Shown here: one piece after another, positions 13,307 to 39,013 of the stretch
How the letters are laid out: each line of letters starts with the position of its first letter
Numbering within the stretch: the first letter of the stretch is position 1
Source of the DNA: Hwangdonia lutea
GTDB taxonomy: Bacteria > Bacteroidota > Bacteroidia > Flavobacteriales > Flavobacteriaceae
Assembly: GCF_032814565.1 (NCBI RefSeq)
Contig: NZ_CP136521.1
Location: forward strand, 1,894,501-1,958,500
Reading direction: 5' to 3'
Length of the DNA: 64,000 nt
Translations under genes and position numbers: made by a program
The notes under the pieces: generated by a model
Databases searched by the model: none
Told to the model about the DNA's origin: nothing
The model's input: the letters and a program-made list of their open reading frames with translations, nothing else

Positions 13307-13464
13307 GGGCGTTACCCCCAGAAAAAGGGGGTCGGGCTTTCCGCTATATCTTTTTAAACGTCATTGCGAATGAGGAACGACTGTGGCAATCTGTTAAATT
13401 TTAGTTCTTATTAAACTTTATTTTTCTCATTTTTAAAAAGGATGCCGCTGCAATCCCTAACGCG
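13307..13464 (+). repeat. Structured intergenic repeat, copy A
   Basis: Closing stem GCGTTA (13309-13314) with TAACGC (13458-13463). Arm 1 is CCCCC (13315-13319) with GGGGG (13327-13331). The core is CTTTCCGCTATATC. Arm 2 is TTTTTAAA (13351-13358) with TTTAAAAA (13432-13439), holding a CGTCATTGCGAATGAGG-type insert. A small hairpin, GGAT with ATCC, lies at 13440-13456. Three related copies lie at 14319, 35125 and 38801. No coding capacity. Confidence 0.8.
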
Positions 13465-13487
13465 GGCTAATTTGGGGTAAACAGTGC

Positions 13488-14081: not shown

Positions 14082-14318
14082 TTAAGTTTTATTCGGGTTG
14101 TGTGCAAGATGTTAAACAATAAGTTTTTTGTTACTGAAACCCCGTAAAGATAAACTTTTTACTACATCATTTATAAGCCTATTTGGTTTATTGTAAGGTT
14201 TGTAGCTATTTTAAAATGTTGCTACACATATTAAATTTTCGCAAAAATTTAACGAACTTGCGTTGCAATTAAAATACGAAGCGAGTATATTCGTTATACC
14301 AAATAAAATATGAGGTTT
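14082..14318. other. AT-rich intergenic stretch upstream of the TPM gene
   Basis: No gene is visible between 14082 and 14480. Before repeat copy B there is an AT-rich region with an inverted pair AACGAA / TTCGTT near 14250-14297 around an AATACGAAGCGAG segment. This segment looks like another small dispersed repeat, but only one copy is present here. No clear promoter for the TPM gene is recognised. Confidence 0.4.
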
Positions 14319-14462
14319 CGCGTTAAGGATTGCAGCGGCATCCTTTTGCTTTTTTTGCAAAAGATATAGCGGAAAGCCTGACCTTTTGCGATCCTGCAAG
14401 GTTTCTTGTGCTGAACTTGTTTCAGTATCCAACCTTGTAGGTATGAGTAAAAGGTAACGCCC
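14319..14462 (-). repeat. Structured intergenic repeat, copy B (inverted relative to A)
   Basis: Reads on the minus strand. Closing stem GCGTTA (14320-14325) with TAACGC (14455-14460). Arm 1 is ACCTTTT (14381-14387) with AAAAGGT (14449-14455), extended by nested hairpins CAAGGTT/AACCTTG and CTGAA/TTCAG. The core AAGATATAGCGGAAAG is conserved. Arm 2 is TTTTGC (14344-14349) with GCAAAA (14357-14362) around a T7 loop. Arm sequences differ from copy A while pairing is kept. Confidence 0.8.
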
Positions 14463-27489: not shown

Positions 27490-28686
27490 TTAAAAATGAA
27501 TATCGAATTGCAAGCGCCACATCAATTCGTTGTTACCGCCATTAATTTCCAAATAACTGATATCGGTTTGCACTTTTAATTTATGCCCCACAATATATTT
27601 TGAAACGCCCAATGTATATTGACTTTCTGGGTTTTTTTCTGTAATATTTTGGTCTAATTTTATGTGGGTGTAACGTCCAGAGATTTCCCAATCGTTTTTG
27701 CATAAAATACCCGTTTGAAGGTTTAAGCCTTTGCCAACCTGAACTTCATCGTCTGTTAAGCTGCCATCAGAATTTTTGGCCCATGGGTCTTGGGCATCTC
27801 TATCGGCATATTCTGCCATAAATGAAAATCCTTTGTATTTAAACATCGCATCAATAAAAAGTGTGTTGATATTGGTTTCAAAAAAACCGGTATCGCCATC
27901 AATAGCCATGTACGACCCTTGATTACTTCGGGTTTTAACCGCATTGTTGTTATGGTCGTAACTTACACCCAAAGCCAGTTTTGGCGTTTGTTCCCTTATT
28001 AAATCGGCGCCTACATAATCGCCTTTACTTGTAAAATTCCCAAAGGGCAATAATTCTATACGGCCCGTGTATTGATGGCCGCCTAAGTTTCCGGTAGTAA
28101 TATTTCTGCCTTCGCCTTGCGCTACAGAAAATATTTCTTTTACAACAAATACATCGGAAATATTAAATTGATGTCTCAATTGCACACCTAAATCTCTGTC
28201 AATATTAAATCGGCTATTTAAAAGCGAGCGATCCACCTGTTGCAAATTTCCAGAAGATATAATACGATCCCGATTCCCCGGAAGTTTTGTTTGTCCGAAC
28301 CAAAGATCGAAACCCGGAGCAAAATTCCATTTTATCACCGCGTCTAAAATATATCGAGGCGCATTACTTGTAAATGGCGAAGCACCAGAAATATCGCGAT
28401 TGGATAAGCCCAACTCCAACTTATATTTAAGTTTGGGCGTAAATGCGTAACCGTCAAATTTTAAACGGGCACGACGGACTAAGAAGTTCGACTCGTTACT
28501 TTGTCCATCTTCCCAATTAGAAATGGCTAGAAATTGCATTCGTGCACCAATTTTCATGGTCCAACTACTATCTTGTCCAACAAGGTTAAAAAGACCTTTG
28601 CCAAACTTTGGAGATTTAACCTCTTGCGTATGAGATGATAAAATGGCAAAAAGGCCTAGTGCAAAACAGGTAAACTTAAGCTTCAT
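27490..28686 (-). CDS. Phosphate-selective porin (OprO/OprP family)
   Basis: The 398-residue protein has a signal peptide (LKFTCFALGLFAILSSHTQ) and the beta-barrel pattern of the phosphate/pyrophosphate porins. Seen are TMKIGARMQFLAISNWEDGQ, FLVRRARLKFDGYAFTPKLK (characteristic arginine-rich strand) and a C-terminal aromatic strand ending MWRLQFDIHF. It would let phosphate or polyphosphate cross the outer membrane. It is upstream of, and codirectional with, the Pit gene. The promoter at 28711-28744 has PHO-box-like repeats. Substrate preference is inferred from family and context. Confidence 0.92.
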   Translation of the reverse strand: MKLKFTCFALGLFAILSSHTQEVKSPKFGKGLFNLVGQDSSWTMKIGARMQFLAISNWEDGQSNESNFLVRRARLKFDGYAFTPKLKYKLELGLSNRDISGASPFTSNAPRYILDAVIKWNFAPGFDLWFGQTKLPGNRDRIISSGNLQQVDRSLLNSRFNIDRDLGVQLRHQFNISDVFVVKEIFSVAQGEGRNITTGNLGGHQYTGRIELLPFGNFTSKGDYVGADLIREQTPKLALGVSYDHNNNAVKTRSNQGSYMAIDGDTGFFETNINTLFIDAMFKYKGFSFMAEYADRDAQDPWAKNSDGSLTDDEVQVGKGLNLQTGILCKNDWEISGRYTHIKLDQNITEKNPESQYTLGVSKYIVGHKLKVQTDISYLEINGGNNELMWRLQFDIHF

Positions 28687-28710
28687 TATAATGTTTTAGT
28701 TTTTGTCGCT

Positions 28711-28744
28711 GCAAAGAACTAAAAACAATGTTAACTTAATGTTT
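28711..28744 (-). promoter_or_regulatory. Promoter and PHO-box-like repeats of the porin gene
   Basis: On the minus strand AAACATT (28744-28738) and TAACATT (28733-28727) lie 11 bp apart, followed after 7 bp by GTTCTTTGC (28719-28711), a degenerate -7 element. The same layout (two boxes, 7-8 bp, a TTTGC element) recurs at the TonB gene and at the small-RNA candidate. The -7 lies 25 bp before the ATG. Confidence 0.6.
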
Positions 28745-28767
28745 CCTAATGATTAAATTTTTATAAT

Positions 28768-28798
28768 AAAAAAAGACTGCCCTGGCCTAAGGCAGCCT
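28768..28798 (-). terminator. Orphan Rho-independent terminator on the minus strand
   Basis: On the minus strand AGGCTGCC (28798-28791) pairs with GGCAGTCT (28781-28774), one G-U included, around a nine-base loop, followed by TTTTTTT. It is upstream of the porin promoter and downstream of no known minus-strand gene, so it most simply ends a small RNA. Confidence 0.7.
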
Positions 28799-28872
28799 CA
28801 TTAGAAATCATAATAATGTAGTCGACAAAAACTAATAGATTATATGAAATACTAATTGTTTTGTCTTAAGAC
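28768..28872 (-). ncRNA. Candidate small RNA in the divergent phosphate region
   Basis: A transcript of about 105 nt is proposed on the minus strand. It has its own PHO-box-like promoter (28877-28909), a 5' palindromic hairpin TTGTCTTAAGACAA (28861-28874, partly upstream of the estimated start), an AU-rich middle, and a strong Rho-independent terminator at 28798-28768. No protein gene lies upstream of this terminator on the minus strand, so the terminator needs another explanation. The only ORF inside is 16 codons and runs through the terminator. Existence and function are inferred. Confidence 0.45.
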
Positions 28873-28876
28873 AAGG

Positions 28877-28909
28877 CAAATATTATGTTTTAAATTGATG
28901 TGAATGTAA
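28877..28909 (-). promoter_or_regulatory. PHO-box-like promoter of the candidate small RNA
   Basis: Minus strand: TTACATT (28909-28903) and TCAATTT (28898-28892), 11 bp apart, then 7 bp, then AATATTTGC (28884-28876) as a degenerate -7 element. The spacing equals that of the porin promoter. Individual boxes are imperfect. Confidence 0.4.
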
Positions 28910-29005
28910 CCTGAATATTAAGTAATTATTAAACTTTCCAATGTTAAATCTTCATGCGAAATAAAGAAATAACATTCTGGTATTTAGGTTTTTAAAACGA
29001 CAATG

Positions 29006-29480: not shown

Positions 29481-30692
29481 TTAGTTGCCTGTGGTCCAGT
29501 TTGCGCCCCATGTTGCATAGTCTGTTCCTGTTCCCTGACCCTCACCTGAGATGAAATCTGTTTCAGAAAAAGTATCGCCAGTATCATTTTTGGTTTTTGT
29601 TGTTACATCGATAAAGGTAATGTTTGTAACATGTAAATCACCGTTAATAACTCCGGTGCCAGTGGGGTTGTCGCTATTGGCACCCGCATCTCCATCAAGG
29701 TCGAACCCCTCGGCAAAGCCTTCAATTAAAATATTGTTAAAAATCCCTTGGGTACCAGCTCTTAACCTAATGGCTTCGTTTCCTTTTGACGAGCCCAAAC
29801 CAATAATTGTGGCATTGTTTACGGTGGGTTTAGACCAAAATTTTGGATTAGAAAGATTCCCAATATCCGTGTTGTAGCCATCGCATTCAAACCCTTTATC
29901 ATGGTCTGCTCCGTGTTTAATGTAAGCATTTGTAATAGACCCCGTAAACCCTTCGGTCCAATCAATAGAATCATCTTGACAATTAATTACAACGGCATAA
30001 GACACTTTTGCTGTACCTCCAAAAAATTCAATGCCGTCATCTGCTCCTTCGTAAGCTTGAATATATTCAATCGTTGTTCCAGAACCAACACCATAAAAAG
30101 AGAACCCGTTGTTTTCTGAGGAACCATCAGCAGCACCGCCTGAATATTCAACGCGTACGTAACGTAAAACGCCTGAATTATCGGCCGAATCTGTTCCGCC
30201 GTAAGGCAAACTACCAATTTCTGACGTTGATGTTGCACTACCGGTAACCGAGTTAATGGGGGCTTTCCCCAAAAGTATTAACCCACCCCATTGTCCTGCG
30301 GTGGGATTCGGATCTCCAGAGGTCATTACAATGGGTTTTTCGGCTGAACCATTAGCTATAATTTTGGCGCCTTGGGAAATAGCAATGTAAACATCGGCAC
30401 CCGTTGCAATGGCTTTAATTGTTACACCTTCGTTTATAGTCAGTGTAGTGCCTTCAGCCATTATTACTGGACCACTAATGGTATAGGTTCTATTGGCTTC
30501 CAATGTTAAGTCTGAAGAATATTCCGAGGCACCAATGGCGATTTCTTCATCATTGCCACCAGTGTTTCCGCCACTATTGTTATGAATAACGCTGTTATCT
30601 GTGATATAAATATCGGCTGTGTCGTCTGTGGCACACGAGTTAAAAAGCAATGCTGTAGTTAATAATCCTAATACTAAATTGTTTTTCATCAT
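29481..30692 (-). CDS. Surface lipoprotein with right-handed beta-helix-like repeats, TonB-receptor partner
   Basis: The 403-residue lipoprotein has lipobox LLFNSC (Cys20) and a Gly/Asn-rich linker (residues about 38-50). An all-beta region follows whose repeats suggest a parallel beta-helix (ANRTYTISGPVIMAEGTTLT, INEGVTIKAIATGADVYIAI, AQWGGLILLGKA-like turns). Acidic loops YEGADDGIEFFGG, CQDDSIDWTEGF, GADHDKGFECDG and DLDGDAGANSDN look able to bind calcium or a charged ligand. No catalytic signature is recognised. It follows the TonB receptor gene by 39 bp with no promoter between, so it is likely the receptor's surface partner, as SusD is to SusC. Phosphate linkage is inferred from context. 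Confidence 0.8.
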   Translation of the reverse strand: MMKNNLVLGLLTTALLFNSCATDDTADIYITDNSVIHNNSGGNTGGNDEEIAIGASEYSSDLTLEANRTYTISGPVIMAEGTTLTINEGVTIKAIATGADVYIAISQGAKIIANGSAEKPIVMTSGDPNPTAGQWGGLILLGKAPINSVTGSATSTSEIGSLPYGGTDSADNSGVLRYVRVEYSGGAADGSSENNGFSFYGVGSGTTIEYIQAYEGADDGIEFFGGTAKVSYAVVINCQDDSIDWTEGFTGSITNAYIKHGADHDKGFECDGYNTDIGNLSNPKFWSKPTVNNATIIGLGSSKGNEAIRLRAGTQGIFNNILIEGFAEGFDLDGDAGANSDNPTGTGVINGDLHVTNITFIDVTTKTKNDTGDTFSETDFISGEGQGTGTDYATWGANWTTGN

Positions 30693-30731
30693 TTCTAAGT
30701 TTAATTTTTATTCGTTCTTTAGTTAATGGTT

Positions 30732-33575
30732 TTAAAATTTATATTTTAATTGGAGTCCAATGTTCATTCCTTTTTTATAGTTTGAAACATCTTTTCCGTT
30801 AGGGGATGTTACCATTATAGCGCCTTGGGTTGTTTCTCTAATATATTTTATGCTTGGATTTAAAAGGTTTTTTGCGGCGACATTGATTTCAAACGATTTG
30901 CCTATTTTATTTTTTAGAATAAAATCTAAAGTTGGAATCCCTTTTTCAATAACATTTCCTAAATGACCAGATCCTAAAGCATCAATTCTATCTGAAAAAT
31001 AAGAGAATGATAGGGTTGCGTTGGGTTTGTAGTGTTCAAAAGATGTTGGTGAGTAGTTAATATCGGCATTGATAATTAATGGCGAAGCGCCTTGTAATGC
31101 CTCTTTGTCATTTACAAAACTTACATTAAAATTGCTGCCAACGATGTCTTGATACAAATCTTGTTCAGTATACATATACGTGGCATTTAGCCCCATAGAT
31201 AATTCTGCTTTGTCATCTCCGTTAGTAATGATATTTTTTCTAATCTCTGCTTCGATACCATAGATTTGAGCTTTTTCGCCCGTTCTGAAAAAACGTTGTG
31301 TTCCTGTAGCGTCAAACGCTACAACTTGATTAATTGGATCTTCAATTTGTTTGTAGAATGCACCGAGTGAGATTAATTCTGATGTTGTTACAAACCATTC
31401 ATATTTTAAATCGACATTTAAAATTGTTGAGTACGATACATCTTTTACATTAGTATATGTTCCTACTTCTTTTTGTCCCAACAAATCTGGATTTCCACCG
31501 ATACGCTGCGATACACTTTCATAAACAAAAGGAGCAACTTCTTTAAATTCTGGAAGAGAAATAGTTTGGCTTGCCGAGAAACGTAGATTTTGGTTTTCGT
31601 TTAATGCATATTTTAAACTTAAACTTGGTAGATACAAGTCGTTTGATACCTCCATATTATCATTCCCATTAACCCCTAAGTTAATCACGTTGTATTCAAT
31701 ATATTGTTTAAAAGATTCGACTCTAACACCAGGCACAATAAGCCATTTTTTGCCTAAATTAATTTCAGCATTCAAGTAGCCTGCGTAAACATCTAATTTG
31801 CCTTTATAAGTGTTTTCTGGTAACCCTGGTCTGTTGGTGTTACTTAAATTAGGGAATGGTTTAATAACTTTAATTTCGTGAGTCCCTTCATGACTTGTTA
31901 GATTTAAGTTGTTTAAAGAGAAAAAACTGTTTAAGTGATTGACATCTGCTATACCGCTATTGTCAATAATATCATAACCATATCTAATATTATCAAAACG
32001 ACGTTCTTTAGTTCGAGCATTGTAACCAACATTAATTTTAATGTTTTCAGAAGGTTTGTAAACTAAGTTTAAACGACCGTTTAACTCTTCATCTTTGATG
32101 TTTTGGAAATAACGCTGATTATCAAAATCTACATTACTATAAAAAATAGGTAGAGTATTAGGGTCATTGTCCAAAGCATATTGATAGTTTTCAAAATTTA
32201 AACGTTTTCTATCTGGTTCATGCGCAGCGACATAGTTGTGGCCAAAGCCCCAATCCAAATCAATCTTATCAAATTTATGAGTTCCTAAAAGTTGATTAAC
32301 ATAAATAAGATTTTCATTAAATTGAATATTCTGCTGATAAAACCCTTCGTCTGTATTGGCTATAGCATCTCGATTTCTACCTTTACCATCAATACCAAAG
32401 TAGCCTATTTTGTCTGACGAACTGTTTACAAATAAAGCGTTAAATTTAAGGGTGCTGCTCGTGTCCATTCTATAAATGATAGATGCCATGGCTGTAGTGG
32501 TGGTGCCGTATTCAAACTCTTCAGATTGCTCAAAGGCTTTCTTCTCAACAATGGTGTAATCTATTGAAGAACCTTTTCTGTACTGGTAATTGTTTTCAAA
32601 CGAACCAGTAGCGTAAAAACTAAGTTTCGATCCGTTTTCAAAATTGAATGATTTTCCAAAGGTACTATTAACACTTGTGTTTATTGGCATGCCAGCATCA
32701 ACAGGGTCGAATCCGTGAGATAAAATAATAGCAAAAGGGTTATGCGCATATCTGTTGTAAAACCCAAAATGACCTGTCCCTTCGCTTCTTACAAAATCTT
32801 TACCAATTGCATTGGTGTTAATTTCGGAGCCGATTCCAAAATCAAAGAAACCTGAGCCTTTATAATCTTTTGAGGAAATATCTACATTTCCTGCAGCAAA
32901 ATCGCTATAGAATTTTGATGAATACGCTTTGCTAATCGATACTTTCTCAATGATATCAGAAGAGAATAAATTTAAATCAATATTCTTTTTGCTAACATCG
33001 TTGGATGGTAAAGACAACCCATTCATTGTGGTATTCAAATATCTATCTCCTAAACCACGTACATACACATTGCTTGAGCCTTCTGGCTTTGATACTCCAG
33101 AGATTTTAGAAATAGCTCCAGCAGCATGACTAACACCTTTTCTCGACAACTCTTCAAAACCAATACTTTGTTTAATTTCAACGGCTTTTTTTTGCTCTAA
33201 AAATAGTGCTGTTTCGCTTTCTCGTTTTGTAGTTGTGGTAATAATGACTTCGTCTAAAGAAGCTGCACTTGCAGCCATGATTACATTTAAGTCTGTCTTT
33301 TTACCAGCTACAATGTCAACACTAATCTCTTGTGTTTTGTAACCCACAAAACTAAAAACCAGTGTATAACTTCCAATTTTTAAATTTTCAAAAGCATATA
33401 AGCCATCAAAGTCTGATGTTGTTCCCGTAGTTGTTCCTTTAATTAAAACATTGGCAAAAGCTAAAGGCTCATTGTTAAACTCCTTATCGGTTATTTTTCC
33501 GGCTACTGATCCGGTGTTTTGGGTGTGTGAAAATGTTGCAGTAAGTAGTGTAAATAATAGTACTATATGTTTCAT
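30732..33575 (-). CDS. TonB-dependent outer-membrane receptor
   Basis: The 947-residue protein has a signal peptide (to about residue 18), a CarboxypepD-reg-like N-terminal domain (about 22-110: GSVAGKITDKEFNNEPLAFA, GTTSDFDGLYAFENLKIGSY), then the plug (SIGFEELSRKGVSHAAGAIS, KPEGSSNVYVRGLGDRYLNT). The large beta-barrel ends in the aromatic strand GLQLKYKF. It imports a substrate across the outer membrane with TonB energy. Its promoter carries PHO-box-like repeats, and it lies with a beta-helix lipoprotein in the phosphate island, so a phosphorus-containing ligand is likely but unproven. It is not a SusC-type receptor by its neighbour. Confidence 0.94.
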   Translation of the reverse strand: MKHIVLLFTLLTATFSHTQNTGSVAGKITDKEFNNEPLAFANVLIKGTTTGTTSDFDGLYAFENLKIGSYTLVFSFVGYKTQEISVDIVAGKKTDLNVIMAASAASLDEVIITTTTKRESETALFLEQKKAVEIKQSIGFEELSRKGVSHAAGAISKISGVSKPEGSSNVYVRGLGDRYLNTTMNGLSLPSNDVSKKNIDLNLFSSDIIEKVSISKAYSSKFYSDFAAGNVDISSKDYKGSGFFDFGIGSEINTNAIGKDFVRSEGTGHFGFYNRYAHNPFAIILSHGFDPVDAGMPINTSVNSTFGKSFNFENGSKLSFYATGSFENNYQYRKGSSIDYTIVEKKAFEQSEEFEYGTTTTAMASIIYRMDTSSTLKFNALFVNSSSDKIGYFGIDGKGRNRDAIANTDEGFYQQNIQFNENLIYVNQLLGTHKFDKIDLDWGFGHNYVAAHEPDRKRLNFENYQYALDNDPNTLPIFYSNVDFDNQRYFQNIKDEELNGRLNLVYKPSENIKINVGYNARTKERRFDNIRYGYDIIDNSGIADVNHLNSFFSLNNLNLTSHEGTHEIKVIKPFPNLSNTNRPGLPENTYKGKLDVYAGYLNAEINLGKKWLIVPGVRVESFKQYIEYNVINLGVNGNDNMEVSNDLYLPSLSLKYALNENQNLRFSASQTISLPEFKEVAPFVYESVSQRIGGNPDLLGQKEVGTYTNVKDVSYSTILNVDLKYEWFVTTSELISLGAFYKQIEDPINQVVAFDATGTQRFFRTGEKAQIYGIEAEIRKNIITNGDDKAELSMGLNATYMYTEQDLYQDIVGSNFNVSFVNDKEALQGASPLIINADINYSPTSFEHYKPNATLSFSYFSDRIDALGSGHLGNVIEKGIPTLDFILKNKIGKSFEINVAAKNLLNPSIKYIRETTQGAIMVTSPNGKDVSNYKKGMNIGLQLKYKF

Positions 33576-38712: not shown

Positions 38713-38800
38713 TTACTTTAGCTATTCTTTTCTGTTTTCTGTTGGTTTTTGCGGACAATAAACGATTGCTAACTGAAGACGGGCTACTGCGGACTGACTT

Positions 38801-39013
38801 CGCGTTAGGGATTGATGCGGCATCCTTTTTAAAGGAAAAAAAGAATTGATTTTGGATAAGAATTGAAGTTTAACAGATTGCCACGTCCTTCGTCCTCGCA
38901 ATGACGCTTTAAAAAGATATAGCGGAAAGCCCGACCCTCCCGATAGTTATCGGTAGGGTAACGCCCAACTTCTCGATATAATTCCGATAAAAAATCGGAA
39001 TCACTCGAAGTGA
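38801..39013 (-). repeat. Structured intergenic repeat, copy D with 5' hairpin module
   Basis: Minus strand. The 5' module (39013-38968) has TTCCGAT / ATCGGAA (38982-38988, 38994-39000) where copy C has a different but paired stem. The closing stem is GCGTTA / TAACGC (38802-38807, 38959-38964). Arm 1 is ACCCT / AGGGT plus CCGATA / TATCGG (38934-38959). The core AAGATATAGCGGAAAG is intact. Arm 2 is TTTTTAAAG (38826-38834) / CTTTAAAAA (38907-38915) with the same CGTCATTGCGAGG-type insert as copy A. Confidence 0.8.

Follow-up and report, generated by a model that had tools for sequence, protein, structure and literature searches.

Genes and features of the locus

The DNA analysed here is a stretch of 64,000 nucleotides of the Hwangdonia lutea contig NZ_CP136521.1, referred to below as the window, and the features of interest are collected in Table 1. 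A gene for a phosphate-selective porin lies on the minus strand and is followed after 69 nt by the gene of a PHO4-type phosphate transporter, with which it probably forms one operon; a Na/Pi cotransporter (Pfam assignment) is a further neighbour. At 29481-33575, also on the minus strand, a 403-aa protein without a Pfam match adjoins a TonB receptor, and by description this pair recalls the FII lipoprotein and TonB gene of the phoBR cluster of F. johnsoniae, as far as that cluster is described in the part of the source used (PMC8115612).

Table 1. Features of the porin locus and of the predicted small RNA gene (window positions)
Feature	Position	Strand	Basis
PHO4-type phosphate transporter, 787 aa	25057..27420	-	PF01384, E 4.1e-30
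Phosphate-selective porin (Porin_O_P), 398 aa, predicted target gene	27490..28686	-	PF07396, E 5e-12
Porin mRNA leader, predicted target of the RNA	28687..28709	-	inverted repeat, leader motif, co-evolution
Leader motif GACAAAAAC	28707-28699	-	
Porin promoter	28711..28744	-	printed sequence and 141-locus consensus
Porin promoter element AAACATTAA	28744-28736	-	
Porin promoter element TTAACATT	28734-28727	-	
Porin promoter element TTCTTTGC	28718-28711	-	
Predicted small RNA, about 105 nt, both ends predicted	28768..28874	-	covariance model match, no ORF
Intrinsic terminator	~28768..28799	-	terminator scan and helix 5
Central hairpin	28800..28856	-	helices 2-4
Tip of central hairpin, UAGUU-UUUGUC-GACUA			seed presented in hexaloop
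Antisense stretch	28823..28849	-	inverted repeat with porin leader and co-evolution
Seed GUUUUUGUC	28832-28824	-	
Anti-start UUUCAU	28849-28844	-	
5' hairpin, palindrome TTGTCTTAAGACAA	~28861..28874	-	helix 1 of consensus
Small RNA promoter region	28877..28932	-	printed sequence, alignment and consensus of 141 loci
TATTTG box	28882-28877	-	
TCAATTT, degenerate repeat	~28898-28892	-	
TTACATT, 11-bp-phased repeat	28909-28903	-	
TTAAT, 11-bp-phased repeats	near 28932 and 28921	-	

The next minus-strand gene upstream of the porin is 29481-30692, which has a terminator-like site of its own at 29461-29429. In the space between, a sequence-only reading had placed a phosphate-starvation small RNA of about 105 nt, pointing to a strong terminator without a gene in front of it, a promoter-like set of elements, a palindrome and the lack of a credible ORF, and all these marks are indeed present. 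The terminator (28799-28773, minus strand, 11 pairs and then a T run) ranks first of 10 terminator-like sites in 5 kb, as compared with 3.6 (sd 2.1) in shuffles; the promoter-like set and the palindrome are those given in Table 1, and 28760-28900 is free of overlapping ORFs of at least 20 aa. The region thus has the appearance of a separate transcription unit with an intrinsic terminator and no ORF. The fold of the RNA has a z of -3.1 against dinucleotide shuffles, 1 of 200 shuffles being as good. A covariance model made of the window locus and 34 related loci, so that the window itself was among the 35 training rows, matches 28879-28766 of the minus strand at 126.9 bits and E 3.6e-26, the second-best match in this genome having an E of 0.156. 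The RNA signal at 28768-28909 is far beyond chance. The small RNA gene is the part of the earlier proposal that stands, with strong support from conservation, covarying helices, the terminator and the persistence of the gene at a distance from the porin in Lutibacter, and phosphate control is the part that stays at plausible; the 22-nt inverted repeat, the porin target and a mode of action did not form part of that reading.

A small RNA family of the Flavobacteriaceae

Conservation in relatives, which had been named as a check, is broad: at E ≤0.01 the covariance model finds the RNA in at least 174 of 397 sampled genomes of the family and in at least 124 of 237 genera, with one RNA match in 169 of the 174 listed genomes. 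In a sample at the level of the order 11 of 296 genomes have a match, nine of them in Flavobacteriaceae and the other two being incomplete genomes. Rfam gave no match at gathering score for the locus of the window or for 12 related loci, and a relaxed Rfam search of the RNA returned three unrelated matches only (E 0.59-4.3). This is a real small RNA family across Flavobacteriaceae, absent from Rfam. Elsewhere in the window Flavo-1 RNAs (RF01705) occur three times above gathering score, at 13326-13472 (minus), 14315-14387 (plus) and 38797-38940 (plus).

The five-helix structure, which was drawn from the window's own fold before covariation was counted, pairs 96.1% of the cells in a core alignment of 35 rows, 12 pairs being changed on both sides; none of 500 shuffles reaches any of five structure measures, and slid registers score far lower. 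Covariation comes from the 5' hairpin (helix 1: 95% of cells paired, both partners changed in three of four pairs), from helix 2 and from the terminator (helix 5: both partners changed in six of eight pairs). Helices 3 and 4, which frame the seed, prove little because they hardly vary. A larger alignment of 71 rows yielded only the terminator in RNAalifold, because its 5' arm was misaligned, hence the use of the 35-row core. Both sets were picked by the exact seed 9-mer, so that the invariance of the seed in them is there by construction; the model searches are independent of this 9-mer. Six of the nine seed bases are unpaired in 55 of 71 single folds, and the hexaloop is exposed (about 0.8 unpaired).

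Porin loci run through the model carried the RNA upstream, on the strand of the porin and at E ≤0.02, in 81 of 100 cases (L100, L101 and L111 were omitted from one or other set and doubly fetched loci were counted once). These loci go back to relatives of the porin taken from 60 genomes including its own, 34 of them with a match, and to the best 80 of 204 relatives from named genomes. At most porin loci TTnTTTGC is followed, after a few bases, by GACAAAAACTAAT ahead of the ATG, and because of its position this leader motif is taken as the putative start of the porin mRNA. Its complement GTTTTTGTC stands on the same strand, usually about 120 nt upstream, in a conserved block with promoter-like repeats of its own, an TGTCTTAAGACA hairpin and a GC-rich terminator. 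The leader motif is present in all 81 loci with the RNA versus 1 of the 19 without it. In that exception, L062, the leader is kept and the RNA was not found in the locus; eight of the 19 RNA-less loci are those of distant porins, and six have AACATT repeats but no leader motif.

Pairing and co-evolution of the RNA with the porin leader

An inverted repeat of 22 nt, 91% complementary, joins the RNA (28823-28844) to the sequence directly before the porin ATG (28687-28708). Its behaviour in relatives was followed in 168 loci, namely the 81 mentioned and 87 of 96 from further sources (nine were repeats), from which 13 duplicates and seven loci without a pattern match were dropped; among the 148 tested, four leaders that are wrong pattern picks (L050, L154, L234, L237) were retained. 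As for the seven dropped, the leaders of L157 and L216 still pair using G-U, those of L047 and L053 lie beyond the 420 nt read, and L181, L217 and L249 are lone RNA copies without a leader in 420 nt. Of the 148 loci, 136 have 12 or more of leader positions 1-14 paired, a level reached by 0.27% of shuffled leaders, and Watson-Crick agreement is above all 2000 shuffles, which ignore kinship, at positions 4, 10, 11, 12 and 13. No pairing excess in fixed register is seen at leader positions -2 to 0 and 16-22. The mean duplex energy of true partners is -20.5 against -17.7 (sd 0.16) when partners are permuted, none of 5000 permutations being as low (137 loci, kinship likewise ignored).

Kinship enters with a tree of 131 porins, on which 18 independent leader changes were found at positions 4 and 10-12: the RNA changed the same way in 9.3 of them and the other way in 0.2, and 8.5 were unmatched in the RNA (median p 0.004, with a range of 0.001-0.07, single positions falling short of significance). 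This was a repeat with longer porin pieces for 40 loci selected among the divergent ones; the earlier tree from short pieces had given 4.3 the same way and 0.1 the other way, with a median p of 0.125. The compensated cases include GACTAAAAC with GTTTTAGTC (L184, L246), GACTAAAAT with GTTTTAGTC (L182, L191), CTTAA with TTAAG (L183, L218, L226, L239, L242, L244) and CTTT with AAAG (L240). Judged by this co-evolution, the porin leader is the predicted target of the RNA, although the roughly half of independent leader changes without an RNA counterpart count against the explanation favoured below.

The complementarity extends to the start codon and beyond. CAT is found in the 5' arm of the RNA in 122 of 139 loci versus 49% of shuffled arms, pairing reaches 2.66 nt into codon 2 versus 2.26 nt in between-species shuffles (0 of 2000 as far), and arm plus seed bind at -20.8 as compared with -18.6 for swapped arms. 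In the sister loci L191 and L182 codon 2 and the RNA differ alike. The best duplex touches the start codon in 141 of 144 loci, a figure for which the comparisons with shuffled arms and between species just given serve as the control. For the window the computed gain of binding is about -13 kcal/mol, in an energy model of E. coli type that may not suit the RNA of this host and its chaperones.

Co-change could also arise without any RNA pairing, if the inverted repeat consisted of two sites in the DNA, both bound by a single protein: as inverted copies of each other they would change in concert, and with this the covariation alone is compatible. We regard such an origin as extremely improbable. 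Exact complementarity past the 9-mer runs at most 2 nt toward the promoter in 142 of 148 loci and at least 3 nt toward the ATG in 115 of 148, and since it respects the transcript start in this manner, DNA sites and gene conversion are both disfavoured, with L075 as the great exception. Codon 2 moreover takes part, the distances have no clear 10.5-bp phase, and the hairpins and the terminator covary. In L075 (and in contig 107 of genome G145, L258) the 3' side of the RNA repeats the porin promoter exactly but inverted for 20 nt past the seed, which looks like gene conversion between inverted copies, and for this reason some of the co-change may not be due to selection. Genome G145 also holds one of the lone RNA copies, L217, as a second copy.

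Proposed mode of action

It is quite probable that the locus encodes a dedicated base-pairing small RNA that binds the porin leader, blocks translation and lowers porin output. From its own promoter a terminated RNA of about 105 nt would be made. First contact may be between its hexaloop UUUGUC, at the tip of the central hairpin, and the 5'-terminal GACAAA of the porin mRNA; opening of the hairpin would then let the 5' arm pair along the leader as far as codon 2, start codon included. The sequences themselves show the complementarity and the co-evolution, and the order of pairing events is our proposal. As the pairing spans the first mRNA bases to the start codon, the duplex should hide the start region and keep ribosomes off, with less porin as the expected outcome. 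Repression of porin translation is thus likely, with the FopS RNAs described below as the analogy.

The main rival to repression is protection of the 5' end, in which the same pairing activates: the RNA would shield the porin mRNA from decay, as FasX does with streptokinase mRNA, or it would prevent an inhibitory fold. Activation would be in keeping with two observations: the duplex starts where the porin mRNA is predicted to start, and the promoters of RNA and porin seem to be of a shared type. The leader, however, is already open (mean unpaired 0.82 versus 0.70 tail-shuffled), so there is little fold to relieve, and a duplex that includes the start codon and codon 2 should block ribosomes; activation is accordingly held to be unlikely.

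As RNA gene and porin stand on the same strand, usually with about 120 nt from seed to leader, they might also be two parts of a cis-acting leader attenuator, in which upstream transcripts read through the terminator and the two halves pair within one RNA. Such an arrangement is very improbable. A conserved porin promoter lies between the terminator and the leader, and in Lutibacter a distance of about 3.4 kb separates RNA gene and porin (L047, L050, L053), which excludes a shared leader there and speaks for action in trans; one transcript holding both halves would hardly be expected at these three loci. In L050 and L053, for which ORFs were listed, three genes of the opposite strand stand between the two. 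Compensated seeds are found at a distance, in L053 and in L059 (about 300 nt between); the seed of L050 has one mismatch.

Link to phosphate

Phosphate control of the RNA is plausible. The RNA gene is adjoined by the Porin_O_P porin, the PHO4 transporter and the Na/Pi cotransporter, and both the porin and the RNA promoter have 11-bp-phased repeats of the AACATT/TTAAT type before a TTTG box. In 141 loci the porin promoter has ACATT at -31 in 106 and at -20 in 112; ahead of TTTG, the RNA promoter consensus of as many loci shows two TTAAT (-56, -45) and one ACATT (-31), the latter present in 57. Phased repeats ahead of the promoter are what a member of a Pho regulon would be expected to have, and they may be likened to PhoB boxes. 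The similarity of the phased repeats makes it probable that phosphate starvation turns on RNA and porin alike; a further, speculative step is that the RNA then caps or times porin synthesis in an incoherent feed-forward loop. Related porin genes respond differently in the parts of the literature considered: among the porin O genes of B. fragilis, one goes up on starvation and down in a phoB mutant, and another goes down in the wild type (PMC3547664); the OprP gene of the phoBR operon of F. johnsoniae is described as not induced (PMC8115612).

Comparison with known small RNAs

Antitoxin RNAs such as IstR-1 (target tisB), OhsC (shoB) and OrzO (zorO) are encoded beside their targets, in divergent orientation, and silence small toxins by a long stretch of pairing. 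The RNA described here is likewise encoded beside its target, not over it, and pairs at length; unlike them, its gene precedes that of the target in the same orientation, and what it would act on is a porin of 398 aa. The enterobacterial MicF and MicC pair with the start regions of porin mRNAs, depend on Hfq and have their targets elsewhere in the genome. Complementarity to the start region of a porin mRNA is shared with them, but here the target is adjacent, and the Hfq that the MicF/MicC type would need in the genome appears to be lacking: PF17209 had no match in this genome, the control matching in 5 of 14 genomes. RRM_1 (PF00076) had no match in this genome either, and its controls matched.

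Within the phylum, the FopS RNAs of Bacteroides thetaiotaomicron pair beside the start codons of susC (SusC) mRNAs and block translation in vitro, as confirmed with compensatory mutants; according to the parts of the source considered there are 14 paralogues with the seed in a single-stranded 5' end, many trans targets and the RRM protein RbpB (PMC11697453). Both have a terminator and pair near the start of an outer-membrane mRNA, whereas the RNA here is mostly in one copy, has its seed in a hairpin loop and has one neighbouring target. This comparison is by description; the RNA has no Rfam match, and FopS may lie outside the Rfam release used. In the same bacterial family, Rfp RNAs are known from Flavobacterium psychrophilum, where deletion of Rfp18 lowers two protease mRNAs (PMC9723704); they too are compared by description, and the RNA here may be identical with one of them. 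The word porin is absent from the main text on Rfp RNAs, as far as it was available, and the literature search (supplements aside) found no small RNA at this porin.

Target specificity and unusual loci

The lone RNA copies (L181, L217, L249) would fit with other mRNAs as the main targets, the porin leader being one of many or a decoy, which is nonetheless very improbable. The target 14-mer CGACAAAAACTAAT (up to two mismatches) has 95 sites genome-wide against 141 for the reversed control, thus no excess. Contexts were inspected at 30 of the 95 sites, the porin leader among them; of the other 29, one belongs to the RNA gene itself, and only L125 (two mismatches) lies directly before an ATG. The pattern TTTG-N2-7-GACWAAAA has 28 sites (96 for the reversed control), all of which were inspected; the porin is the only one that fits, since there alone a leader position and a pair of AACATT repeats coincide with the strongest duplex (-19.2, as against -18.3 for the runner-up).

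In genome G014 neither a porin nor a leader follows the lone copy L181. This genome has three other exact 12-mer sites for it, one of them before a gene that presumably encodes a putative CotH-like lipoprotein; no claim is made for other targets in this genome because the control was equally frequent. In three further genomes, G174, G355 and G654 (L182, L191 and L279), the gene that follows the RNA encodes a different protein, predicted to be secreted or in the outer membrane, and has a matching leader; seed and leader form a pair of their own (GACTAAAA/TTTTAGTC). The secreted protein has no Pfam match in L182 and no tblastn match to the porin in L182 and L191.

To our knowledge, targets are known for few small RNAs of Bacteroidota, and the genome studied here shows neither Hfq nor RRM proteins of the kind used in Bacteroides. 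With a little less than an even chance of being right in full, we propose a new small RNA family, with members in about one of every two Flavobacteriaceae genera sampled, in which the 5' half of the RNA is antisense to the whole translation start of its neighbour, from the first mRNA base to codon 2. It would act free of Hfq, would place phosphate uptake under an incoherent feed-forward loop driven by starvation, and would be matched to whichever outer-membrane gene adjoins, as the differing genes of G174, G355 and G654 suggest. If true, a post-transcriptional layer would be added to phosphate uptake in common marine bacteria. Because sequence comparison, with compensated changes supplied by nature, points out both the target and the site of pairing, the mechanism and the question of the chaperone are directly testable.

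A few loci depart from the common arrangement. Genome G164 has a second RNA copy before a porin remnant (L177), and at L249 the RNA precedes a transporter, with no porin in the stretch read. In two Gelidibacter loci, L107 and L110, the RNA was not found upstream, and the promoter and leader of the porin form an inverted repeat of their own, which in L110 consists of CAGTTCTTTGC with GCAAAGAACTG.
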